DNA of 64,000 nt from Maribacter arenosus (GTDB taxonomy: Bacteria > Bacteroidota > Bacteroidia > Flavobacteriales > Flavobacteriaceae). Location of the stretch: the NCBI RefSeq assembly GCF_014610845.1, contig NZ_JABTCG010000003.1, positions 248,001 through 312,000 on the forward strand, given 5' to 3'. Both the position numbers and the translations under genes were made by a program. Under the pieces are notes generated by a model that was not told the origin of the DNA, made no database searches, and worked only from the letters and a program-made list of their open reading frames with translations. Shown piece after piece: positions 52,119 through 64,000 of the stretch. Position 1 is the first letter of the stretch. Each line of letters starts with the position of its first letter.

Positions 52119-52691
52119 TTATTCAATTATGAGGTTGTATTTTGTTAAAAGCCCCTTGACGGATTCTAAGGAAAATTTTGCACCTTTAATTTTATTCTGT
52201 TCGGGATCAATAATAAAATTATCGGAACTTCTTAAATCGGCATTTTGCAAATCCGTGTTTTTAAATACAGCATTCAGTAAATCGCAATTTTCAAAAACAG
52301 ACGTATTCAGATTACATTCGGTAAAATCCACTTCATGTAATTTTGATTTAGTAAACACGGTTTTTGAAAGTTTCTTTTTGAAAAATGAGGAGTGATTTAG
52401 TTGGCAATGATCAACTTTAATCGAAAAAGCAAAATCACTACAGGTATCGAAACGCATACCTAACATCTTACAATCTTTAAATGTTACTTCTTGAAGCCCT
52501 GTTTCGTGAAGATTAACCAAACTTAAATCGCAATCAATAAATTGGCATTCCAAAAATCGAATTTTTGATACGTCGGAATTAGAGAAGTTACAATTTGAAA
52601 AAGTACACGATTCATAATCGCCTTTGTCTAATTTATTTTTTGAGAAATCTTTTCTTTCAAATTTTATGTCTTCAATAAATTGTAGTTCCAT
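52119..52691 (-). CDS. pentapeptide-repeat protein
   Basis: A 190-residue soluble protein with pentapeptide repeats of the A(D/N)LXX type forming a right-handed beta-helix. Units include CTFSNCNFSNSDVSK, CQFIDCDLSLVNL, SSFFKKKLSKTVF and CNLNTSVFENCDLLNAVF. The layout with a break near residue 85 and length near 200 resembles Qnr/McbG-like proteins that mimic DNA and protect gyrase. Quinolone protection should not be inferred without testing. It is preceded by the second copy of the intergenic hairpin module. Confidence 0.88.
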   Translation of the reverse strand: MELQFIEDIKFERKDFSKNKLDKGDYESCTFSNCNFSNSDVSKIRFLECQFIDCDLSLVNLHETGLQEVTFKDCKMLGMRFDTCSDFAFSIKVDHCQLNHSSFFKKKLSKTVFTKSKLHEVDFTECNLNTSVFENCDLLNAVFKNTDLQNADLRSSDNFIIDPEQNKIKGAKFSLESVKGLLTKYNLIIE

Positions 52692-53368: not shown

Positions 53369-53580
53369 GTATATAGTTACTAGGATCTATATTTTTATTT
53401 TAGGTACTATAAATTTCCTATAAAATATGGTGGTAAACAAGTCTACAAAGGCCTATGTTATAAATACCGGTTGATCGGTTATACTTTGAACGTATACACA
53501 AAGTGCGTTGCATTTAGAATCGCGTCTTAGTTAAGGACGATCTCATCAACGAACAACCAGCTATTGCCCCCAGGGTTCGG
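53369..53580. repeat. copy b of the ~200-bp dispersed repeat (intact gene end)
   Basis: The reference copy. It comprises about 158 bases of 3' flank and the last codons of the intact gene at 53527. Similar blocks lie at 46353 and 50826, both with the coding end decayed. Confidence 0.75.
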
Positions 53581-55590
53581 ATGCCATTCGGGGTTTTTCA
53601 ATTGACTGTTTACCTGTACCCGTACATATTTTGCAGACGTTGGGGCAATGTCCATATCGAAGAACCGGAATTTCGTATTCGTATTGATCTCCTCCGGCCC
53701 CACATTCAGGGTTTTTGCGAGTTTAAAATCCGTACCGTTCATGGAGGTCCAGACCTTAAACCCCGTAGGATAAAAGATCCATTTTTCAGGGGATGAAAAC
53801 GCCCCCACCGAGACCGAGGATACCTGTTCTTCTTTTCCGAGTTGGATCGTGGCGGTAAAATTACTGCCTTCAAAGCCGATCCAATTGCCATCCACAAAAT
53901 TGACGGTTCCCCTTTTCTGGTCGATCAGCGTTTGGGCCCCATGCCCTTTATAACGTTCATTAGGATTTTTATTCAAGGTAATGGCGTTTACATCGAAGGA
54001 TATTTTCTTAAAACTGGAGGCGGTTACCTCGCTCAAATTCCATCCCGGGGCATGGGTCACCGCTTTTACCTCCGTAGATCGGTGGATCGTAAGTGGTTTT
54101 GAATATGGTAATGACGTGGAATCGGGTATGGAACCATCTAGGGTATAAAAAATCTGGGCATCATTAAAAACATACTCCATCGCTATTTGTAACGAATCCT
54201 TAAAGAAATCGGTATCTGCGATTATCGTGGGGGGTTCCAACTTTGTGGCCTTGAAAATGTCACTATCGATCTGTCCCTGTACGTTCACTTCGGGATGGGC
54301 GTTCGCGAAGGCATCCATAGCCTCTTTTGTAATATTGGTTTGCCAAAGATAGAGATGGGTTAGTTTGGGTAAGTTTTCTAGTTTTTCGAACGCCTTATTG
54401 TCGACTTCGGTACCATACAGGTTTAAGGATTCCAAATGTTCAAATTCCGTGATGACGTCAATGGATTTCTCCGCAATGGCCGTTTTTTGTAGTTGCAGTT
54501 TGGTCAGGTTTTTAAAAGCTTTCAGGGATGGGGCCAATGTATCGTTGAAATTGGTGTGCCCCAGATTCAATTCCACGATATTCTTGGCATATTTTTTTAG
54601 GGCCTTAAAATCCCCAGGGGTCAAATCGGTCCGCCCATATAGATTGATTAAGATCAACGGGCTCTTTATCGCCAATCGGGAAGCCGAAATATTGGAACTG
54701 TTCAGATCGGCCAACCAGGCATTGGGCACTACACTGACCTCCTTGGCAATCATGGCCCGGGTGGAGGTGTCTTCTTCCAAGTTCTTTAAAATCTTTTGCA
54801 GTTGCTCCGTTTTCTCCATAGTACCGACCACACAATCGAAGCAATGGCCGTGGGCCATCCACCACTCCAATAGCGCCAATTCGTCCGCTGTGGGCTGTAC
54901 CTTGCCCTTTGGGGGCATATGGTCCTCATCTTCCAAAGGTAATTGCAGGTGGTGTAGAAACAGGGAAGGTTTATCGGGGGCCACCGAATCGAGAATACTC
55001 CCCGAATCACCACCCGCCAAGAGGTTTTCCTTCGTATCCATCAACAAGCCTCCCTTTATCTTGGAGGTATTGTGACAACTTACACATTTGTTGTCGAAAA
55101 TGGGTTGTATGATATCGTTGTAGACAAGGGCTTTGTCCACATCCTCAATGACCACTTTTTGGGTTGTCTTGTCCGCAAAAAGGAAATCCTCCCCATGGGT
55201 CATGCTGCCCCCGTAATGCCCCGTAATGCCAATGAGTATGAGCACCACAATATAGAGGGGCATATAGAGTTTTTTCGCGATTGCCGTGGCCGACCTTTTA
55301 AGAAAATATAGTCCGGCAGTCAGAACCGTAAAGGCTACCGCCAACCAGCGATGGCGAAAGAGCAATGTTTCGTCATACCCGCCATTGTCGGCCAATAACC
55401 ATCCCGTACCTAAGGAAATGATTGCGGTTAGGGCCCCAAACCCTAAAACCATCAAGAGTATATCCCTGACCGCATCGGAGGGTTTTTTTCGAAACCCGAT
55501 TTCCAAAACAAAACCAATAATCAAAATCCCGATGGGCAGATGTATCACCAAGGGGTGTAAATTTCCTATTTGCAGGGTTTGTGCGATCAT
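53527..55590 (-). CDS. membrane c-type cytochrome protein: DUF2231, cytochrome, LRR, chitobiase-C and discoidin-like domains
   Basis: A 687-residue multidomain protein, last in its operon. Residues 1-130 form a four-helix DUF2231 membrane domain (LHPLVIHLPIGILIIGFVLE). Residues 155-250 are a planctomycete-type cytochrome with the heme motif CVSCH (169-173) and distal MPPKG. A non-heme CFDC follows at 250-253. Leucine-rich repeats cover about 310-425. A chitobiase/hexosaminidase C-terminal domain lies at about 465-525 (FYTLDGSIPD), and a discoidin-like carbohydrate-binding domain at 535-687. The protein therefore puts a heme and sugar-binding modules outside a membrane anchor. The start adjoins the upstream stop exactly (TAAATG). 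Confidence 0.9.
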   Translation of the reverse strand: MIAQTLQIGNLHPLVIHLPIGILIIGFVLEIGFRKKPSDAVRDILLMVLGFGALTAIISLGTGWLLADNGGYDETLLFRHRWLAVAFTVLTAGLYFLKRSATAIAKKLYMPLYIVVLILIGITGHYGGSMTHGEDFLFADKTTQKVVIEDVDKALVYNDIIQPIFDNKCVSCHNTSKIKGGLLMDTKENLLAGGDSGSILDSVAPDKPSLFLHHLQLPLEDEDHMPPKGKVQPTADELALLEWWMAHGHCFDCVVGTMEKTEQLQKILKNLEEDTSTRAMIAKEVSVVPNAWLADLNSSNISASRLAIKSPLILINLYGRTDLTPGDFKALKKYAKNIVELNLGHTNFNDTLAPSLKAFKNLTKLQLQKTAIAEKSIDVITEFEHLESLNLYGTEVDNKAFEKLENLPKLTHLYLWQTNITKEAMDAFANAHPEVNVQGQIDSDIFKATKLEPPTIIADTDFFKDSLQIAMEYVFNDAQIFYTLDGSIPDSTSLPYSKPLTIHRSTEVKAVTHAPGWNLSEVTASSFKKISFDVNAITLNKNPNERYKGHGAQTLIDQKRGTVNFVDGNWIGFEGSNFTATIQLGKEEQVSSVSVGAFSSPEKWIFYPTGFKVWTSMNGTDFKLAKTLNVGPEEINTNTKFRFFDMDIAPTSAKYVRVQVNSQLKNPEWHPNPGGNSWLFVDEIVLN

Positions 55591-56388
55591 TTATTCAACT
55601 AAGATTTCATCCATAAAAAGCCAGGGTACCGTGCCTTTGCCCTGGTGCCATTGGGGTATTTCATCCAAGGGATACACTTTTACCGTCAATTGGGAATAGG
55701 TTCCTTTTTTAAGGGGGACAGCAGTCATTACCAGTCGATTGCGCTGTTGTTCCCCTACGTTTTCAAAGATCGTTTCCCCTAAGGCCTGGGAGCCCGAGAA
55801 TACTTCGATTTTCTGTGGACCAAAAATCCACCCACCCTGATTTTGCAGTGTACTTACCTTGAGCATCGAAAGTTCCATTTCGTTTTTCAGATCGATATCG
55901 ATGGTAACCGGATTGGCTTGGAAGCCCAACCATGGATCGCTTCCCCTGAACTGTAATCTGCCTTTTTTCATATCGACCAACCCTTGGGTACCCGAACCTT
56001 TATAGCTGTCATGGGGAGAAGGGGTGAGGGTAACCGCAGCGTCGGAAATATCATGGATCAGTTTTTCAACCTGTAAGCTGATTTGGTCACTGGCTTTAAA
56101 ATCGGGATGAAAGGCCTTGGCGTTTATGATCGTGGAATGCTTTACGTGTACGGGCCCCTCATAAATGGGGCTATGGCCGTCTACGTCATTTCCATCCAAG
56201 GTGTATCGGATTCGGCTTTCGGGAAAACCAAATTGAAGGGTGAAGGTGGTGGCATTTTTAAAAAGGGCGGAATCAACAGTAAGTATAGGTGGTGCCAACT
56301 GAAATGTACCAGTTGTTTCATAGGTATTGTTTTCCGTAGTACAGGAACCAAGGACAGCCAAAAACAATAAGATCATTATAGTTCTCAT
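55591..56388 (-). CDS. lipoprotein with chitobiase C-terminal and discoidin-like domains
   Basis: A 265-residue lipoprotein (signal ending FLAVLGSC). The first domain (about 40-115) has RIRYTLDGNDVDGHSPIYEG as in chitobiase/hexosaminidase C-terminal domains. The second is a discoidin-like beta-sandwich (YKGSGTQGLVDMKKG, WIFGPQKIEVFSG, final WLFMDEILVE). Its whole length is paralogous to the last 230 residues of the downstream gene. I take ATG 56388, two bases after the upstream stop; a frame to 56436 would overlap that gene. It should be a glycan-binding accessory protein on the envelope; binding is inferred from the domains. Confidence 0.88.
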   Translation of the reverse strand: MRTIMILLFLAVLGSCTTENNTYETTGTFQLAPPILTVDSALFKNATTFTLQFGFPESRIRYTLDGNDVDGHSPIYEGPVHVKHSTIINAKAFHPDFKASDQISLQVEKLIHDISDAAVTLTPSPHDSYKGSGTQGLVDMKKGRLQFRGSDPWLGFQANPVTIDIDLKNEMELSMLKVSTLQNQGGWIFGPQKIEVFSGSQALGETIFENVGEQQRNRLVMTAVPLKKGTYSQLTVKVYPLDEIPQWHQGKGTVPWLFMDEILVE

Positions 56389-56390
56389 AC

Positions 56391-57425
56391 CTAAACCCTG
56401 AATAATTTTATCGGATAAGTTTTTCCGGAATTCCATTGGGCCACATACAGGTTTTCATCTTCGTCCACACAAACATCATGGGGATGGTGAAACACCTTAA
56501 CAGTCTGATGCATGCGTTCCAATACATCTCCCTGATATGTGGGAATGCTACCCCCTGGGGCAGAAATAAGTCGGTTGTCCTGGTCCAAAATAGAAATAAA
56601 CCCTGTGCCCTCGCTACCATCCCCGGACCAAATGGTGGCCAAATACACATGCGTGCCATGGATGACCGGTCGGCAAATGTAGGCACCCGGTAAATCAGAA
56701 CTTTCAATGTATTCCCCATCCATCGAAAATCGTTTCAATTTATTCTGTTGTCTGGCGGTAATCAATAGGGTAGGGTCAGTCACATTTCTGGTGTCGATAC
56801 AGATGCCATGGGCATTATTGAACTTACCATCTTCCTCCCCTTTGCCACCAAAGGTATTGAGTAATTGCCCTTGGGCATTGTAATGCATAATATACTGTTC
56901 CCCATACCCATCGGCGATATAGACATCCCCATTTTCGGCAATGGCGGTCTCTGTAGGGATGTACGATTCTTTGGTATTGTATTTTCCGGATTCCTTGGGA
57001 TAGTCGAACACCTGGATCACCTTACCATCGATGGTGGTTTTGATGACCTCATGCCGTGCATTGTCGGAGATATACAATATATCCTCCCCGTTTTCAACAT
57101 GAAGGGTAAGCCCATGTGCCCCGGGATAGTCGGTACCCCAAACTTCGATCAACTTTCCTGATTTATCATAAACGATTGCATTGTTCTTGGTATGGTTGGT
57201 CAACAGTATGATGCGTCCTTTTGAATCCTGTACCATTTCGTGGCAGTCGTTGACCGGATAGAAGTTGGAATTCAGCGCCCCCCAATTCATATCGATCTTA
57301 TATTGATGCGAACCATGACCAATAATCAAGTCTTTATACGGTGCCATCGCATTCAATACGGGCATTCCCGCTAAGATTCCGGTTGTGGCCAAGGCTGTAT
57401 GCTGTATAAAGTTTCTTCGTTTCAT
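56391..57425 (-). CDS. NHL-type six-bladed propeller protein, Tat-type signal
   Basis: A 344-residue exported protein. The N-terminus MKRRNFIQHTALATTGILAG is a twin-arginine signal. The body has NHL-like blades: NDCHEMVQDSKGRIILL, GAHGLTLHVENGEDILYISD, IAENGDVYIADGYG, NAHGICIDTRNV and HHPHDVCVDEDENLYVAQW. The arrangement of HG and H-rich strands resembles peptidylglycine alpha-amidating lyase-type propellers. No catalytic assignment is safe. It lies third in the operon, 21 bases after the DUF1501 gene and before the chitobiase-C lipoprotein. Confidence 0.87.
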   Translation of the reverse strand: MKRRNFIQHTALATTGILAGMPVLNAMAPYKDLIIGHGSHQYKIDMNWGALNSNFYPVNDCHEMVQDSKGRIILLTNHTKNNAIVYDKSGKLIEVWGTDYPGAHGLTLHVENGEDILYISDNARHEVIKTTIDGKVIQVFDYPKESGKYNTKESYIPTETAIAENGDVYIADGYGEQYIMHYNAQGQLLNTFGGKGEEDGKFNNAHGICIDTRNVTDPTLLITARQQNKLKRFSMDGEYIESSDLPGAYICRPVIHGTHVYLATIWSGDGSEGTGFISILDQDNRLISAPGGSIPTYQGDVLERMHQTVKVFHHPHDVCVDEDENLYVAQWNSGKTYPIKLFRV

Positions 57426-57446
57426 GTATTCAGGACTCGTTTTGGG

Positions 57447-58940
57447 CTAGGTCAAAATATCTTTTACCACATGGCCATCGACATCGGTCAACCTAAACCG
57501 TCTTCCCTGGTATTTATACACCAACTTTTCATGGTCGATACCCAATTGATGCAATAGCGTGGCCTGAAAATCATGTACATGCACCGGATTCTGGGTAATA
57601 TTATAGCCAAAATCATCGGTCTGCCCATAGACGATACCGGGTTTAATGCCTCCACCCGCCATCCAGATACTGAAAGACCTTGGGTGGTGGTCACGCCCGT
57701 AGTTCGTATCGGTCAATACCCCCTGTGAATAGTTGGTTCTTCCGAATTCACCGCCCCAAATGACCAAGGTGTCCTCGAGCATTCCACGTTGTTTTAAATC
57801 GGCCACAAGGGCTGCGGAGGCCTGATCCACATCCTTGGCCTGTTTGGCAATGGCCCCAGGGAGATTATCGTGTTGGTCCCAACCCATATGGTATAATTGG
57901 ATAAAGCGTACGTCTTGTTCCGCCAACCTTCTTGCAAGCAAACAATTTGCCGCATACGTTCCCGGAATTTTAGCATCGGCACCGTACATTTTATAAATAT
58001 AATCAGGTTCGTTATCCGTATTGATGACTTCGGGAACAGAAGTTTGCATGCGATAGGCCATTTCGTATTGGGCAATTCTACTCTGGATCTCTGGATCGCC
58101 ACTCTCTTGGAAATGCCTATCGTTCAAAGCCGCAATCTGATCCAACATGGCCCTTTTTCCTTCCTTGGTCATCCCCTTAGGGTCGTTAAGATACAAGACC
58201 GGATCTTTGGCCGCCCTGAATTGTACCCCTTGGTGCAAGGAATGGAGAAAACCATTCCCCCAAAGGCGGGTATACAAAGGTTGACCATTAGGCCGACCAG
58301 ATCCCCTGGATAATAAAACGGTGAATGCAGGTAGGTTTTCATTTTCGCTGCCCAACCCATAACTCAGCCAGGAACCAATACTCGGTCTACCGGGTTGTTG
58401 TGAACCGGTTTGAAAAAAGGTTACCGCGGGATCATGGTTAATGGCCTCGGTATACATCGATTTAATGATACAGATATCATCCGCCATTTTAGCGGTATAG
58501 GGTAAGAGGTCACTGATCCATGTCCCGTTTTTGCCGTGTTGTTGAAAACCGAATTGAGAGCCTACCAAAGGGAATTTGTCCTGTCCGGAAGTCATTCCGG
58601 TCAAACGCTGCCCATTTCGAATGGATTCCGGCAGATCTTCCCCTCGTCGTTGGTTCAATAGGGGTTTATAATCGAAGAGTTCCAATTGGGAAGGGCCTCC
58701 ACTCTGAAATAAATAGATTACCCTTTTTATCTTTGCAGGGTGGTGTAATGAATCCAGTATACCTTTAACACCGGCCGGGCCTTCGTCTGCGGTCAAAAGA
58801 CCTTTAGGACTTTTTCTAAAGAAACTATTACCTAGAAGGGAAGCTAAAGCCACACCTCCGACCCCTAAGGCCGTTTTTCCTAAAAATGACCGTCTATTAA
58901 GGATCAAGGATCTTTCTTCTAAAATTTTTTTCTCGCTCAT
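57447..58940 (-). CDS. DUF1501 protein, Tat-exported, sulfatase/phosphatase-like fold
   Basis: A 497-residue protein of DUF1501, related to the alkaline-phosphatase/sulfatase superfamily. A twin-arginine signal lies at LNRRSFLGKTALGVGG (residues 14-29). Conserved blocks are VIYLFQSGGPSQLELFDYKP, GTWISDLLPYTAKMADDICI, SMYTEAINHDPA, IQLYHMGWDQHDNLP, VIWGGEFGRTNYSQG and GRDHHPRSFSIWMAGGGIK. The Asp, His and Glu residues in those last blocks are plausible metal ligands. DUF1501 genes regularly follow DUF1549/DUF1553 genes, as here with a two-base gap. The reaction is not established. Confidence 0.92.
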   Translation of the reverse strand: MSEKKILEERSLILNRRSFLGKTALGVGGVALASLLGNSFFRKSPKGLLTADEGPAGVKGILDSLHHPAKIKRVIYLFQSGGPSQLELFDYKPLLNQRRGEDLPESIRNGQRLTGMTSGQDKFPLVGSQFGFQQHGKNGTWISDLLPYTAKMADDICIIKSMYTEAINHDPAVTFFQTGSQQPGRPSIGSWLSYGLGSENENLPAFTVLLSRGSGRPNGQPLYTRLWGNGFLHSLHQGVQFRAAKDPVLYLNDPKGMTKEGKRAMLDQIAALNDRHFQESGDPEIQSRIAQYEMAYRMQTSVPEVINTDNEPDYIYKMYGADAKIPGTYAANCLLARRLAEQDVRFIQLYHMGWDQHDNLPGAIAKQAKDVDQASAALVADLKQRGMLEDTLVIWGGEFGRTNYSQGVLTDTNYGRDHHPRSFSIWMAGGGIKPGIVYGQTDDFGYNITQNPVHVHDFQATLLHQLGIDHEKLVYKYQGRRFRLTDVDGHVVKDILT

Positions 58941-58942
58941 AG

Positions 58943-61309
58943 TTATCCTCTGGTTATGGTTTCATCCAAATTCAGGATGGTGTGTGCGGTTAATGCTAGC
59001 GCAGCCCATTCCTCTTTTGGAATTTGCTCCTCCGTTCTAAAAGCCCCAATGGACAGATATTCATCCGCATTGATTTCTTGGGACTTTATCTTTAAGAGTG
59101 TTTGGTCATAATAGTCTTGTAACATGGTTATCTCATCTGCTTCAGGCAATCTTGAGGTTGCTTTTTGAAACAAAGTGGCAATTTGCTTATTTATGTCGTT
59201 TTGGTTCACAAGTATTTCATTGTATGCCATAACCCTGGCCGCTTCAATGAGCTGGGGGTCGTTCAAGAGCACCAAAGCTTGTAAGGGGGTGTTGGTTTGC
59301 TGCCGCTGTACGGAACATAGGTCACGGGATGAGGCATCGAAGGTCATCATACTCGGGGGAGGAACCGTGCGTTTCCAAAAGGTATAAAGGCTTTTTCGAT
59401 AAAGGTCGGCACCTTTGCCCTGAACATAGGTTGCCGTAGTGCCCCCACCACCGCCGGTGGTTTCTTCCCAAATTCCTTCGGGTTGGTAGGGTTTTACACT
59501 CGGGCCACCGATTTCTTTGCTTAACAGTCCGCTTAAATGCAGCGCTTGGTCTCTAATGGTTTCTGCCGGTAGTCGTAATCTTGGGGCGTGGGCCAACCAC
59601 TTGTTTTCAGGATCTTGTTGTAAACCTTCCTCTGACATCTTGGTGCTTTGTTGATAGGTGGCGGATAAGGCCATATATTTCAACATCTTTTTTAGATCCC
59701 AACCTTCATCTTGCAATTTGAGGGCTAGGAAGTCCAATAATTCCGGATGGGTCGGTAAGGCACCCTGATTCCCAAAATCGAAGGAAGTACTGACCAAGCC
59801 CGAACCGAACATACGTTGCCAAAGTCTGTTTACGGCCACCCTTGCCGTTAGAGGATTGTCTTTATGGAACAACCATTTTGTTAGTCCCAACCGGTTTTTT
59901 GGCAGGGCTTCTGAAAACGGCAGCAATGATTCAGGTGTATTGGGATACACTTGTTGGGAAGGTTGGTCATAGGCACCACGATTCAATATAAAAGTGGGCC
60001 GCGATTCTTCCATTTCTTTCATCACCATGAGTGGAATCTCCTTTTTTTCACTCTTCTGAAAGTTGATAAAGTCATACACCCCCTGCTGTTCCTTCTCGGA
60101 AATGATCATGTAGGGCTCCGGGGTTTCTGTCTGATTGGATATCAACCCTTTTTCGTTGATGTTATTAAAAAAGCTAAAGAGTTCAAAATGGTCTTGTTGG
60201 CTAATAGGATCATATTTATGGTCATGGCAACGGGCACATTCCAAGGTAAGCCCTAAAAAGGCAGTGCCAAAGGTTATGGTGCGGTCTTCAACATATTCCA
60301 CCCGATATTCTTCGGGAATGACCCCTCCTTCGTAGGTAATTTTATGGTTTCTATTAAAACCAGTGGCTAAAATCTGTTCTTTGGTGGCATTTGGCAAAAG
60401 GTCCCCGGCCAATTGATAAGTGACAAAACGGTCGTAGGGCATATTCTTATCGAAAGCATGAATGACCCAATCGCGCCATGGCCACATGATCCGTTCAAAA
60501 TCATCTTGATACCCATGGGTATCCGCATATCGTGCAATATCCATCCATTCCGCAGCCATGTGTTCCGCATAATCCTTTGAGCCTAAGTAGTGGTCTATCA
60601 TTTTTTCAAAGGCTTTTGGGGAAGCATCGTTTTTGAACTGTTCGAGTTCTTCGATACTTGGTGGTAGGCCAGTTAGGTCAAAGGACAATCGTCTTAGTAA
60701 TTTTTCTTTTCGCGCGGGTTCACTCGGGGATAGCCCATTTTCACTAAGTTTGGCCAGAATGAAAGTATCTATTTCATTAGCACCCCATGAGGAATTTTCA
60801 ACCTTGGGAAGGGTTGGTTTATTGGGAGCGATAAATGCCCAATGCTCCTTATACTCCGCTCCGTCTTCAATCCATTTGGTCAATATTTTCTTTTCATAAT
60901 CGGTCAATTCCAAATTGGATTCGGGTGGGGGCATTAAGACATTGGGGTCTTTGGAATAAATACGTTTAATGAGTTCGCTACTCTCAATATCCCCGGGTAC
61001 AATGGCGAAGTGGTCCTTTTTGTCGCCAAGGGCCTTATAGGCATCTTCGGCGGTATTGAGTGAAAGTCCGGCCTCAATGGCATTTTTGTCGGGCCCATGG
61101 CATTTAAAACAACGATCGGAAATAATAGGTTTTACATGAAAGGTAAAGTCCACTTTATCCGGGATTTTGGTTTTCCCAAAGGTCTTGTCCATTGCCGTAA
61201 TTTGGGGATTTTCATTTTTACAGCTGGAACAAAGAACAAGGAGTACTGTAAAACAGGACAGATATATTTTTTCCAAAAACCTAAGGTTGGATGCCATGCT
61301 TCTGCTCAT
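58943..61309 (-). CDS. DUF1549/DUF1553 (PSD1) cytochrome c lipoprotein
   Basis: First gene of the operon, 788 residues. An N-terminal signal ends LCSSC, probably a lipoprotein. A planctomycete cytochrome domain follows with heme motif CFKCH (67-71) and VLMPPPES as possible distal ligand. DUF1549 begins near residue 185 (EIDTFILAKL, LRRLSFDLTGLPPS, YAEHMAAEWMDIARYADTHGYQ). DUF1553 fills the C-terminal half (NPLTARVAVNRLWQRMFG, GLVSTSFDFGNQG, PSMMTFDASSRDLCSVQR, QALVLLNDPQ). Such proteins are numerous in Planctomycetes and scattered in marine Bacteroidota; their reaction is unknown. ATG 61297 is an alternative start. Confidence 0.92.
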   Translation of the reverse strand: MSRSMASNLRFLEKIYLSCFTVLLVLCSSCKNENPQITAMDKTFGKTKIPDKVDFTFHVKPIISDRCFKCHGPDKNAIEAGLSLNTAEDAYKALGDKKDHFAIVPGDIESSELIKRIYSKDPNVLMPPPESNLELTDYEKKILTKWIEDGAEYKEHWAFIAPNKPTLPKVENSSWGANEIDTFILAKLSENGLSPSEPARKEKLLRRLSFDLTGLPPSIEELEQFKNDASPKAFEKMIDHYLGSKDYAEHMAAEWMDIARYADTHGYQDDFERIMWPWRDWVIHAFDKNMPYDRFVTYQLAGDLLPNATKEQILATGFNRNHKITYEGGVIPEEYRVEYVEDRTITFGTAFLGLTLECARCHDHKYDPISQQDHFELFSFFNNINEKGLISNQTETPEPYMIISEKEQQGVYDFINFQKSEKKEIPLMVMKEMEESRPTFILNRGAYDQPSQQVYPNTPESLLPFSEALPKNRLGLTKWLFHKDNPLTARVAVNRLWQRMFGSGLVSTSFDFGNQGALPTHPELLDFLALKLQDEGWDLKKMLKYMALSATYQQSTKMSEEGLQQDPENKWLAHAPRLRLPAETIRDQALHLSGLLSKEIGGPSVKPYQPEGIWEETTGGGGGTTATYVQGKGADLYRKSLYTFWKRTVPPPSMMTFDASSRDLCSVQRQQTNTPLQALVLLNDPQLIEAARVMAYNEILVNQNDINKQIATLFQKATSRLPEADEITMLQDYYDQTLLKIKSQEINADEYLSIGAFRTEEQIPKEEWAALALTAHTILNLDETITRG

Positions 61310-61515
61310 AATTAGGGTTACGATTGTAATGATTTAAGGGTCTCTACTACTACGGTTCGACTAACTTAAAATTAGCCTAAGCTAAGCTAGGCTACAATCA
61401 AAATCGGAACTTAATAACGATATGACAATTAAATTCGACTAATGACGGCTGCTAAAGGTTGAATACGGGTCATTCAGGTAAATCGTGGTACAAAATCAAT
61501 GGTATTTTGGTAGGC

Positions 61516-62232
61516 TTATGTAATGGAATTGTTCAATATTTTTGCCTTAACATCATTTAAGTAGCTTCTGCCAATAGTATATCGGGTATTATCTATTTCG
61601 AGGCTGTTGCCTTCCACCACCTGGACCTTGTCAATCGAAATAGTAAATGATCGGTGTATGCGTATAAATTGATCAGCGGGCAGTTCATCTGTAAAACTGC
61701 TTAATGTCTTATGTACGATATATTTACCGGTTGTTGTTTTGATCCGAATATAATCCTTTAAACTTTCGACAACCACTATTTCATCCAAGTATATCTTCTG
61801 TAATTTCTTTTTATCGACCTTGACAAAGATACTAGGATGTTCCTTGTTGCCATTCCGATCGGAGACGCCATGATTCTGTTTGAGCTTTATAATGCGATTC
61901 ACCGATTTGAGAAACCTGGGAAATGGAATGGGTTTGACCAGATAATCGATCACTTCCAGTTCAAAACTCTCTAATGCGAATTCTTCATGGGCCGTTGTTA
62001 TGACTACCATCGGTGCTTCATGTAGTGTTTTGAGAAACTCAAGACCGTCTAAGATAGGCATATGGATATCCAAGAAAACAATGTCTACTTCATGGCTTTG
62101 TAAATAGGTAGATGCGTCTACGGCGTTAGAGAATGTACTCACAAGTTGTAGTTCCTTCACCTGATCAACGTAGTTCTTGAGTACATTGATAGCCAATGGC
62201 TCGTCATCGATTACAATCGCTTTAAGTTCCAT
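61516..62232 (-). CDS. LytTR-family response regulator
   Basis: A 238-residue two-component response regulator. The receiver domain (1-120) has the acidic pair in AIVIDDEPLAINVL, the phospho-acceptor Asp in VDIVFLDIHMP, the Thr in MVVITTAHEEFAL and the Lys in YLVKPIPFPRF. The C-terminal LytTR DNA-binding domain (about 140-235) has IFVKVDKKKLQKIYLDEIVVVESLKDY (seen as FVKVDKKKLQKI then DEIVVVESLKDYI) and HRSFTISIDKV. Its start overlaps the kinase stop by one base (TAATG). It probably regulates neighbouring envelope genes, possibly the GH92 gene or the cytochrome operon; this is positional inference. Confidence 0.94.
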   Translation of the reverse strand: MELKAIVIDDEPLAINVLKNYVDQVKELQLVSTFSNAVDASTYLQSHEVDIVFLDIHMPILDGLEFLKTLHEAPMVVITTAHEEFALESFELEVIDYLVKPIPFPRFLKSVNRIIKLKQNHGVSDRNGNKEHPSIFVKVDKKKLQKIYLDEIVVVESLKDYIRIKTTTGKYIVHKTLSSFTDELPADQFIRIHRSFTISIDKVQVVEGNSLEIDNTRYTIGRSYLNDVKAKILNNSIT

Positions 62233-63362
62233 TATACCTTTAAATTTAGTTCAACATTAAATCTATCGTCTTTCTCATATATTCTAAGGTCGTAATCATC
62301 TGGCTCATAACCCAGTTCTAGCCTTTTTTTAACATTTGATAACCCGATACCACCTCCACGGGGATAAGAATTCCCGGCATTTCTTTTTTTCGGGATGGTA
62401 TTCGATACCCTGAAAAACAAATCGTCCCCTTCCACCTTGATCTCGATGTCAATATACATTTTCCCTATATTTTGACTGGCTCCATGTTTAAAACAGTTTT
62501 CGATAAGCGGAATGAGCAACATAGGCGATATTTTTTTATTCTCGAGACTACCTGAAAGCTGCATATTCACTTCAAGGGAATCGTCAAAACGAATTCGTTC
62601 CAAATCGATGTAATTCTGTATGCATTCGATTTCGTTGGTCAGATCCTGTTTGGGTTTTTTGGTGGCATATAAAAGATACCGCATCAAATCGGAAAGTTTT
62701 AGCACCACTTCAGGGGCTTTATCCGATTTTTCCAAGGTCAGCGAGTAAATATTGTTCAAGGTATTAAAAAAGAAATGGGGAGAAACCTGGGATCTTAGAA
62801 ATTTTAATTCTGTGGTCAGCTGTCTTTTCTCCAAGTTATGCAACTTATTATTTTCACGAAGCCAATCGGCCGTTATTTTTATGGCAGTTACAAAAGATAC
62901 CACATACAACTCCCCAAGCATGGTGGTAATCGCATAATTCAGGGTCAATGTATCGACCACCTCAGTGGCTTCGGGCATTACATCGGTGCTTACCAGATAA
63001 TAGGTAAGATTGAATTTGACCAAAAGCATTAATAAAAGTGAACCCAGTACCAAAAGGGCATAAGAGACGTACTTTTTATTGTAAACGAATTTGGGCATGA
63101 GGTAATACACATTGAAATAGGAAAGCGCTATATGGATCGGAAAGCCAATAAGGTTTGTTTTAAGGGAATAAACCAGATCATCATGAATACTTCCCCATCG
63201 TAACGTATTGAAAACAAAATAGATAGCCCAAAATATGATATGGTGAACATAGGTGATATCATAATCTTTCGACACACTCCTGCTAAAAAAACCATCAAGT
63301 CGTTGGTTTAAGTTGCGCTGATATTGTTCAGGATTTAATTCCTTTTTAATGGCGTTGGGCAT
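62232..63362 (-). CDS. LytS/YehU-type sensor histidine kinase
   Basis: A 376-residue membrane histidine kinase of the His_kinase (PF06580) class. Four membrane helices occupy residues about 40-170 (IIFWAIYFVFNTLRW, IGFPIHIALSYFNVYYL, YALLVLGSLLLMLLVKF, MLGELYVVSFVTAIKI). The phospho-accepting His lies in FLRSQVSPHFFFNTLNNIYSL (read LRSQVSPHFFFNTLNNI). The ATPase domain has the N-box PLIENCFKHGA and the G-box GGGIGLSNVKKRLEL. There is no separate periplasmic sensor domain, so the membrane part itself must sense the signal. It is coupled to the LytTR regulator and divergent from GH92. Confidence 0.94.
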   Translation of the reverse strand: MPNAIKKELNPEQYQRNLNQRLDGFFSRSVSKDYDITYVHHIIFWAIYFVFNTLRWGSIHDDLVYSLKTNLIGFPIHIALSYFNVYYLMPKFVYNKKYVSYALLVLGSLLLMLLVKFNLTYYLVSTDVMPEATEVVDTLTLNYAITTMLGELYVVSFVTAIKITADWLRENNKLHNLEKRQLTTELKFLRSQVSPHFFFNTLNNIYSLTLEKSDKAPEVVLKLSDLMRYLLYATKKPKQDLTNEIECIQNYIDLERIRFDDSLEVNMQLSGSLENKKISPMLLIPLIENCFKHGASQNIGKMYIDIEIKVEGDDLFFRVSNTIPKKRNAGNSYPRGGGIGLSNVKKRLELGYEPDDYDLRIYEKDDRFNVELNLKV

Positions 63363-63521
63363 TGGTGCATAGTTGTTGGTCTAAAAATGTTCCGATTTTA
63401 AATAAAAGTGGCAACATTTATTAGGTTGAATTGCGTGGTAAGTTACTTATTTTTTGGATTACGGGTGTAAAAAATGAGCACACTATGTAATACGCACATA
63501 TTAACAAAACCAACCGGAAAA

Positions 63522-64000
63522 ATGAAAATTCACTTTGTTTTAGCTATTGTTTTGATAGGCATGGTTTCCTCATGTGCTAAAAAGGGGAACACTTTAGATG
63601 CAAAAGAATCTATTCAATATGTTGACCCCTTCATAGGAACTGGCGGTCACGGCCATACCTACCCAGGGGCGACCTCCCCTTTTGGGCGTGTGCAACCCAG
63701 TCCGGACAATGGCACTGCTGGGTGGGACTGGTGTTCGGGATACCACATCAGTGATTCGATCATTTCCGGTTTTGCGCAATTACATTTAAGCGGCACCGGT
63801 ATTGGTGATCTCGCCGATGTACTTTTAATGCCGACAAATTCTGAGGTAGACCTTGGTCTTTTCGGAAAGACAAGGGATTCCTTACCCTATACTTCAAAAT
63901 TTTCACATGATCAAGAAGAGGCTTCTCCAGGATATTATAAGGTGCTTTTACAAGACCCTGATATTGAGGTTGAACTTACTGCGAATGATTATGTTGCCTA
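63522..64000 (+). CDS. GH92 family alpha-mannosidase lipoprotein, 3'-truncated by window edge
   Basis: The frame opens at ATG 63522 and is still open at the window end (159 codons visible of an expected 700 or more). A lipoprotein signal (HFVLAIVLIGMVSSC, Cys18) is followed by the GH92 N-terminal domain: YVDPFIGTGGHGHTYPGA, TSPFGRVQPSPDN, WDWCSGYHISD and FAQLHLSGTGIGD with DVLLMP. GH92 enzymes are calcium-dependent exo-alpha-mannosidases, common in Bacteroidota glycan loci. It is divergent from the histidine kinase gene, with 159 bases between them that could hold both promoters. Confidence 0.93.
   Translation, partial: MKIHFVLAIVLIGMVSSCAKKGNTLDAKESIQYVDPFIGTGGHGHTYPGATSPFGRVQPSPDNGTAGWDWCSGYHISDSIISGFAQLHLSGTGIGDLADVLLMPTNSEVDLGLFGKTRDSLPYTSKFSHDQEEASPGYYKVLLQDPDIEVELTANDYVA

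Follow-up and report, generated by a model that had tools for sequence, protein, structure and literature searches.

What is the function of an operon in which predicted haem proteins of the PSCyt/PSD kind stand together with a DUF1501 protein, a propeller and lectin-like modules? This question was raised by a 64,000-nucleotide stretch of the Maribacter arenosus genome (RefSeq assembly GCF_014610845.1, contig NZ_JABTCG010000003.1, positions 248,001 to 312,000), hereafter the window. The operon, A-B-C-D-E, consists of five co-directional minus-strand genes running from 61309 down to 53527, and the intergenic gaps were 2 nt (A-B), 21 nt (B-C), 2 nt (C-D, taking the lipoprotein-like Met at 56388 and not the longest-frame start at 56436 as the start of D) and 0 nt (D-E). 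The compact five-gene arrangement with gaps of 0–21 nt, described earlier from the sequence alone (the sequence-only reading), was thereby confirmed. By a narrow balance of probability, the operon is read here as a periplasmic, respiration-linked accessory module that is deployed with a SusC/D importer, usually that of an N-glycan locus. This reading was built on the gene content, the conserved haem motifs and metal-type residues, the neighboring locus and an upstream motif common to both. Among its parts, co-deployment with the importer was best supported, followed by the N-glycan origin of the substrate, the electron path and, weakest, the chemistry of A, B and C.

In the window's genome, the operon adjoins N-glycan enzymes together with SusC/D. 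The GH92 neighbor mentioned in the sequence-only reading was present, and it was found to be the first gene of a larger divergent locus that extends beyond the window, with a LytTR two-component pair in between. Past the window edge, the locus reads, in order, GH92, SSF, GH130, CBM9, GH92, GH92, PNGase F and GH92, and after the fourth GH92 it continues with GH18, DUF4838, an F5/8 frame, GH29, SusC, SusD and FG-GAP/ASPIC-UnbV. PMC10154615, in its available text, assigns GH18, PNGase and GH92 to the release and demannosylation of N-glycans.

Conservation was evaluated using 136 loci, namely, 60 fetched stretches and 80 named loci less four repeats. The stretches (57 short-form and three long-form) were picked by open-frame length, with short forms over-represented, and the named loci were the best 80 of 588, with a bias to close relatives. 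The repeats, L099, L106, L137 and L146, were dropped in the gene-content, tree, motif and partner-homologue counts and kept in the conserved-position, neighboring carbohydrate-active enzyme (CAZyme) and residue counts. L096 and G303/L183 look like one genome, and L047 and L050 are near-identical. Locus types were set by score and E length; on the tree, type II needs three changes and type III two, while type I, the window's group, forms one side of a branch with a Shimodaira–Hasegawa-like approximate likelihood ratio test (SH-aLRT) value of 99. By profile search, PSD1 was found in at least 78 of the 299 genomes of the family. The full A-B-C-D-E order was found in 12 of 19 type I loci (A-B-E in four) and 11 of 13 type II loci; A-B-E was the commonest short-form unit among the 136 loci and made up, as plain A-B-E, 24 of 30 type III loci. 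The co-occurrence of the five genes, which the sequence-only reading had set down to be searched for, is conserved in relatives, though with A-B-E as the core and C-D as a cassette between B and E. The cassette was recognized because D never occurs without C (27/27 D calls have C), while 24 of 51 C calls lack D. Two D calls were doubtful, a truncated frame in L168 and an extra D in L073 (a hexosaminidase), and the number of D calls without C remains zero. L101 showed the order A-B-A-B-C-D-E, and its stretch also contained two GH92 genes. L127, on a contig labelled Thalassobius sp. (Pseudomonadota), carried an A-B-C-E operon grouping with Bacteroidota sequences, which would reflect either horizontal transfer or a mis-binned contig.

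The link to N-glycan enzymes was then quantified. Within the fetched stretches, GH92 was present in 11 of 34 type I/II loci and in 2 of 106 others (Fisher p 2.3e-6); in the genome draw alone, the counts were 9/21 and 1/39 (p 1.6e-4). Flanking open reading frames (ORFs) were scanned with Pfam, 99 from 17 type I loci and 78 from 13 type II loci, and the type II flanks contained GH92 (17), GH20 (8), GH29 (6), Asparaginase_2 (5), GH3 (3) and GH123 (3). Strong PNGase F matches (E < 1e-40) were obtained in 29 of 299 genomes. In G000, G032, G209, G240 and G006, no more than about 18 kb separated the PNGase F gene from a type I/II operon's PSD1 match, and in G195 the two were on different contigs.

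The second line of evidence was the upstream motif. The sequence GTYATTNGTCGAA was found upstream of both gene A and the SusC gene of the neighboring N-glycan locus. When relaxed to GTYATTNGTCGA (at most one mismatch, same orientation, no more than 300 bp upstream of A), it was found in 8/19 type I loci (9/20 including the window) and 5/13 type II loci, and elsewhere upstream of A in 1 of 99 (type III 0/30, type IV 0/9, long-form 0/29, other 0/1, remaining short-form 1/30). The background of GTYATTNGTCGA was 49 matches in 2.45 Mb, or 0.0066 per 330 bp. The motif had been discovered from the window, L096, L097 and L079; excluding these leaves the motif in 10 of 29 type I/II loci, and excluding also L055 and L100, which had been seen prior to the relaxing of the pattern, leaves it in 8 of 27. 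An inverted repeat between the regulator and A, TAGCCTAGCTTAGCTTAGGCTA at 61373-61394, was rejected as a candidate operator, its exact matches being only in loci of the same genome.

The exact 13-mer was further located genome-wide. In G032, two matches were found, upstream of A and of SusC in the N-glycan locus, and in G215 there were likewise two, 59 bp upstream of A and 97 bp upstream of a SusC. G000 had five matches (one preceding A, one lying 118 bp ahead of SusC and the other three within coding frames), G219, G075 and G250 had one each, upstream of A, and G258, which has no operon, had one between GH92 and SusC, approximately 285 kb from its PNGase F locus. The single matches of G164 and G006 lay elsewhere than A or SusC, and zero matches were found in G240, G203, G201, G024 and G270. 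Fourteen genomes without a found type I/II operon gave 15 matches, none with a SusC start in the next 400 bp and one inside a SusC-like frame. As the reversed pattern is equally frequent overall, only the positions of the motif are informative.

The SusC carrying the motif in G215 lies far from the operon and is accompanied by SusD, FG-GAP, CBM9 and kinase/regulator homologues (73–75% identity). This genome (L225, L226) holds a motif-bearing importer set and has no GH92 match. Accordingly, the constant partner of the operon looks like the SusC/D importer set with its regulator, not the mannosidases, and GH92 as a constant operon partner was rejected. Co-regulation of the operon with SusC/D is possible, the motif being common to both in part of the genomes, and co-deployment with this importer is likely.

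The regulator and kinase stand directly upstream of A in G032 and G304, and the regulator does so in G303. Homologues of the regulator were found near 4/19 type I loci (L074, L079, L096 and L097), with the kinase near three of these four, and near none of the 113 A-bearing loci of other types. Among the other partner-set homologues, CBM9 was found near three, SusD-like near three and FG-GAP near two of the 19 type I operons.

Several results weigh against this reading. As for the motif, it came from close sequences, it is absent upstream of A in 11/20 type I and 8/13 type II loci, and it is in no genome-wide excess (reversed-pattern controls gave 5, 15 and 19 matches versus 9, 9 and 15). The two 13-mer matches of G135 lie at the SusC of a GH92/GH130/GH20 locus and elsewhere, with none at A, and the sole match of G209 lies elsewhere. 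As for the neighbors, the type I flanks (99 ORFs) contained more sulfatase (6) than GH92 (4), some type I operons stand beside housekeeping genes (rpsP/rimM), and 13/20 type I and 6/14 type II loci were without any seed CAZyme in the stretch. A constant N-glycan association across relatives was not found: GH92 is present at only the 11 of 34 type I/II loci counted above, G215 (one contig, 99% complete) has A-B-C-D-E without a GH92 match genome-wide, and the single GH92 of G075 is on another contig than the operon. Conversely, G258 has the regulator, kinase, GH92, SSF, GH130, CBM9 and PNGase F, with no PSD1 match among the matches listed. Types III, IV and other short forms occupy other contexts, where N-glycan neighbors are usually absent. 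The glycan link of the sequence-only reading was therefore retained where position and the common upstream motif back it, and not as a universal feature.

The other contexts were characterized similarly. The type III flanks (135 ORFs, without L062, L070 and L072) contained YceI (14), FGE-sulfatase-like proteins (12) and M20 peptidase (8), and GH92 was not among their 25 commonest families. Type III A-B-E is often near these three families, e.g., in L060, L043 and L058, a second recurring neighborhood, which might hint at another substrate. For type IV and other short loci, 100 of the flanking ORFs were covered by the Pfam scan, and the type IV operons L081, L083, L086 and L088-L091 stand beside proteins of approximately 1300 aa. 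In L081, this neighbor is a hybrid two-component sensor, a type of protein that controls polysaccharide loci.

With the A-B-E core found beside hybrid two-component sensors, YceI, FGE-like proteins and sulfatases, and with G215 carrying the operon without any GH92, A-B-E may instead be a general sugar-oxidizing periplasmic dehydrogenase or electron-transfer unit recruited by various loci, the N-glycan co-regulation being clade-specific happenstance. In function, it would then correspond to glucoside 3-dehydrogenase and the cytochrome of that enzyme. The glucoside 3-dehydrogenase (3-keto-glycoside) system includes a flavin adenine dinucleotide (FAD) dehydrogenase subunit; unlike that system, the five operon proteins contain no FAD dehydrogenase domain, and neither an FAD-dependent nor a Gfo/Idh dehydrogenase domain was detected in them at E ≤ 0.01, so that A itself would have to be the oxidizing center. 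This explanation was considered possible, although on the unlikely side.

Whether the operon could perform a redox reaction depends on A and E. Gene A scored above the curated cut-offs for Pfam PF07635, PF07583 and PF07587. The sequence-only reading had assigned one CxxCH motif to each of two proteins; this held for E (CVSCH), but A has two (CFKCH and CARCH). Exactly two CxxCH motifs were present in 138 of 139 aligned A proteins, and an alignment of 51 sequences contained 127 invariant columns. From the conserved motifs, A is predicted to be a two-haem protein, with Met126 as a possible sixth ligand of the first haem. The predicted structure was mainly helical (predicted local distance difference test, pLDDT, 82; predicted template-modeling score, pTM, 0.85). 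Searched against the PDB, this model gave nothing at E ≤ 0.001 (best E 0.66), and the sequence profile gave four weak matches (best E 0.05). The nearest relative of A in the set was that of Maribacter sp. SS_bin_62 (80% identity); when 12 genomes of the genus were searched, G303, G304 and G032 had matches at 73–80% identity besides the window, and the others at 54% or less.

In the DUF2231 part of E, H12, H17, H80 and H125 were conserved in 109/109 aligned proteins and H132 in 108/109; farther along E, past the CVSCH motif, M225 was conserved in 109/109. A simple prediction from hydropathy and loop charges, in which the third helix scored below threshold, placed all five histidines at periplasmic helix ends, beside the haem-c domain. 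Accordingly, the view of E as a classical diheme cytochrome b gave way to that of a single site close to the periplasmic face. E is predicted to lie in the inner membrane and to have a periplasmic soluble part, and its residues 469-687 matched the C-terminus of beta-hexosaminidase (structure 6q63, E 1.3e-26).

For gene B, the match to PF07394 reached 528.8 bits (cut-off 27; E 1.2e-158), and the Tat (twin-arginine translocation) export read earlier from the sequence agrees with a match to the Tat-signal model above its cut-off. T164, N168, H169, H351, D355, H357, E398, D417, H418 and H419 were conserved in 145/145 aligned proteins. A Foldseek search with the predicted structure gave 193 PDB matches at E ≤ 0.001, the best having E 2.5e-7 and probability 1.00. 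Carrageenan sulfatases headed the list, and its first 21 entries also included sulfamidase and lipoteichoic acid synthase; the query-length TM-scores were 0.26-0.37 among the 50 matches listed, and the pLDDT of the model was 72.8. The sequence profile of B gave no PDB match up to E 0.1. B is thus predicted, from this model, to have an alkaline phosphatase superfamily fold of the phosphatase/sulfatase kind, like the sulfatases and phosphodiesterases 6b0j, 4miv and 4upk. The motif [CS]xPxR is the signature of formylglycine sulfatases. Unlike those sulfatases, B had this signature in 0/145 proteins and Thr at the presumed nucleophile position in 145/145, and a formylglycine sulfatase was ruled out.

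B was found in 60/60 stretches fetched around PSD1 matches and has the highest share of positions conserved at ≥93% (188/497, versus 176/788 for A, 83/344 for C and 36/687 for E, from different row sets). Together with its predicted fold, this would fit a hydrolytic module centered on B that removes phosphate-type groups, with A and E as partners for electron transfer or sensing, by which B is matured or monitored. The retention of both haem motifs in 138/139 A proteins argues against such a secondary role of A, and this explanation was considered improbable.

Two further DUF1501 matches were noted. By profile search, the genome has a single such operon (one PSD1 match, two PSCyt1 matches, and one full and one partial DUF1501 match). 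The partial match (E 5e-21) belongs to a 566-aa protein at L002:688-2388, which also has a weak sub-cut-off match to a secretion tail and is possibly an outer-surface relative of B. In L175, an open frame of 1605 aa matches DUF1501 and may be a fusion.

Gene C had been read as a Tat-exported NHL propeller; the NHL part was found by Pfam, and the twin-arginine motif was recognized by eye. H104, Y174, H206, R225 and H316 were conserved in 54/54 aligned proteins, and H37, C61 and H62 were further conserved residues. A profile search against the PDB matched peptidyl-alpha-hydroxyglycine lyase (PAL, 3fvz) at E 3.4e-12, and in a second search, with a 250-residue segment, residues 10-240 aligned with 3fvz. 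A point against this assignment is that TRIM-type NHL proteins scored above PAL in both searches. In PAL 5wm0, counted along the sequence letters, the comparable residues are H585, Y654, H690, R706 and H786, of which the three histidines are presumably the zinc ligands and Y654 and R706 part of the active site. The residues of C stand in similar motif context, only the H316 region being aligned residue by residue, and are likely equivalents of the three His, Tyr and Arg of the PAL site (3fvz, 5wm0). PAL is described in the consulted part of PMC6529398 as a zinc-dependent six-bladed propeller, and its active site includes Arg703 in the numbering of PMC10303134, as far as the available text goes. 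C thus resembles this zinc lyase and may bind zinc and act as a lyase. Unlike PAL systems, the five operon proteins have no copper monooxygenase domain, and C has the extra H37, C61 and H62.

D shares homology with the C-terminal part of E (29% identity, E 2e-32). The chitobiase-C and discoidin-like domains recognized from the sequence were found by Pfam as CHB_HEX_C_1 in D and E and F5_F8_type_C in E.

Based on these results, a scheme was drawn up for the operon as a periplasmic module working with the SusC/D importer. The signals and the predicted topology suggest that B and C are exported to the periplasm through Tat, that A and D are lipoproteins and that E is anchored in the inner membrane. 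The former suggestion that a polysaccharide is attacked at the cell surface found no support: the soluble part of E is predicted to be periplasmic, and B and C have twin-arginine signals. Outer enzymes would trim glycans, and SusC/D would carry the fragments into the periplasm, the compartment that A, B, C and the outward-facing side of E would occupy. There, A, as a two-haem oxidoreductase, would oxidize imported material, be it a mono- or oligosaccharide or a fragment of a glycopeptide, and electrons would pass to the haem c of E, then to the five-histidine DUF2231 site, which may hold haem b, a metal or quinone, and finally to quinone or the respiratory chain. C, as a PAL-like zinc propeller, would split a bond in the oxidized intermediate; B, as a phosphatase-like hydrolase with a Thr nucleophile, would take off an ester group; and D and the tail of E, as beta-hexosaminidase-type modules, would hold glycans of the N-acetylglucosamine (GlcNAc) type.

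N-glycan fragments are a moderately probable substrate, an origin backed in the window's genus and in 8/14 type II loci, and unsupported in G215. Redox coupling through E was given somewhat better than an even chance, and what argues for the "redox-assisted" idea of the sequence-only reading is the haem motifs only. YceI proteins bind isoprenoids, and YceI beside type III operons would therefore fit an electron path to quinone. The oxidation and bond cleavage assigned to A and C are doubtful. By analogy with peptide amidation by peptidylglycine alpha-hydroxylating monooxygenase (PHM) and PAL, the same logic with haem replacing copper would make A and C an oxidase-lyase pair, in which A oxidizes or hydroxylates the carbon beside nitrogen in a GlcNAc-asparagine or amino-sugar fragment and C breaks the C-N bond, with electrons leaving via E; this version is far-fetched.

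An operon serving no glycan purpose (e.g., envelope stress or cofactor processing) and placed by the N-glycan locus by coincidence is quite improbable: other locus types are usually without N-glycan neighbors, and an extracytoplasmic function (ECF) factor of Rhodopirellula baltica, suggested as PSD1/PSC2 regulator, was up under all three stresses tested in the part of PMC2754498 available, but the motif common to A and the SusC of an unlinked locus in G215, the GH92 enrichment and the beta-hexosaminidase-type modules in D and E argue against it.

Joined with earlier work, the module deployed with the importer has both familiar and new traits. As in the cytochrome/PSD genes of Planctomycetes and Verrucomicrobia, judged from the accessible text (PMC5615132, PMC2754498), PSCyt and PSD1 are combined in one protein. 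In Rhodopirellula baltica, DUF1549 and DUF1553 are given as 41 copies each in the portion of PMC2754498 available. A 2017 survey, again as far as its available text goes, called the functions of such PSCyt/PSD genes wholly uncharacterized and reported that PSCyt2 genes usually adjoin a family of unknown genes and that some bear carbohydrate-binding modules (PMC5615132). What sets the genes described here apart from the planctomycete ones is that they are a single-copy version from Bacteroidota, accompanied by the membrane cytochrome E, the PAL-like propeller C and the lectin-like lipoprotein D, and that their upstream motif recurs at a SusC. GH92, GH18 and PNGase F neighbors, SusC/D and the beta-hexosaminidase-like tail of E (6q63) are shared with N-glycan utilization loci as presented in the available text of PMC10154615. 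Unlike here, the enzymes described in that text are hydrolytic, and the word cytochrome does not occur in its main text. A search of the literature collection available found no paper with both terms DUF1501 and DUF1553; in the partial texts seen, no paper appeared to assign a function to DUF1549/DUF1553 genes, and the N-glycan link, C-D cassette, PAL likeness and motif were not found stated.

Together, the operon, the N-glycan locus and the common motif suggest an unrecognized redox step, and if it is confirmed, the hydrolytic picture of bacterial N-glycan breakdown would have to be extended. Moreover, PSD1-type genes are here single-copy and belong to a defined operon, for which an inducer is predicted, a regulator has been proposed as a candidate and presence or absence varies within the genus. 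Because of the single copy, defined operon and predicted inducer, a long-standing family of unknown function becomes a single-knockout question. Table 1 summarizes the corresponding features.

Table 1. Features of the operon and its surroundings, in window coordinates
Feature	Position	Strand	Basis or remark
GH92 alpha-mannosidase, first gene of divergent N-glycan locus	63474..64000	+	off window edge; entire gene in L176
His_kinase-family sensor, pairs with LytTR regulator	62232..63362	-	Pfam
LytTR response regulator, adjoining A on its upstream side in close relatives	61516..62232	-	Pfam
Motif GTCATTAGTCGAA, conserved block between LytTR regulator and A	61434..61446	-	comparison of close sequences
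Gene A, 788 aa: PSCyt1 + PSCyt2 (DUF1549) + PSD1 (DUF1553)	58943..61309	-	Pfam; lipoprotein-like start by eye
Predicted haem-c motif 1 of A, CFKCH, residues 67-71	61097..61111	-	sequence
Predicted haem-c motif 2 of A, CARCH, residues 358-362, within DUF1549	60224..60238	-	overlooked by the sequence-only reading
Gene B, 497 aa, Tat-exported DUF1501	57447..58940	-	Pfam, Tat model, predicted structure, alignment
Gene C: NHL propeller, twin-arginine motif by eye	56391..57425	-	Pfam, profile searches, alignment
Gene D: lipoprotein-like (by eye), CHB_HEX_C_1 + C-terminal module	55591..56388	-	Pfam; longest ORF from 56436
Gene E: DUF2231 + PSCyt1 + weak LRR-like + CHB_HEX_C_1 + F5_F8_type_C	53527..55590	-	Pfam
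DUF2231 part of E, predicted four-helix membrane domain	55195..55563	-	Pfam, hydropathy
Predicted haem-c motif of E, CVSCH, residues 169-173	55072..55086	-	sequence

A scan for promoters and terminators was uninformative, with 28 versus 22.2 (standard deviation 4.6) and 10 versus 12.3 (standard deviation 3.7) in shuffles. In addition, a 190-aa pentapeptide-repeat protein (Pfam Pentapeptide_4) is encoded at 52119-52691 on the minus strand; the pentapeptide-repeat fold is also found in DNA-gyrase-protecting proteins.

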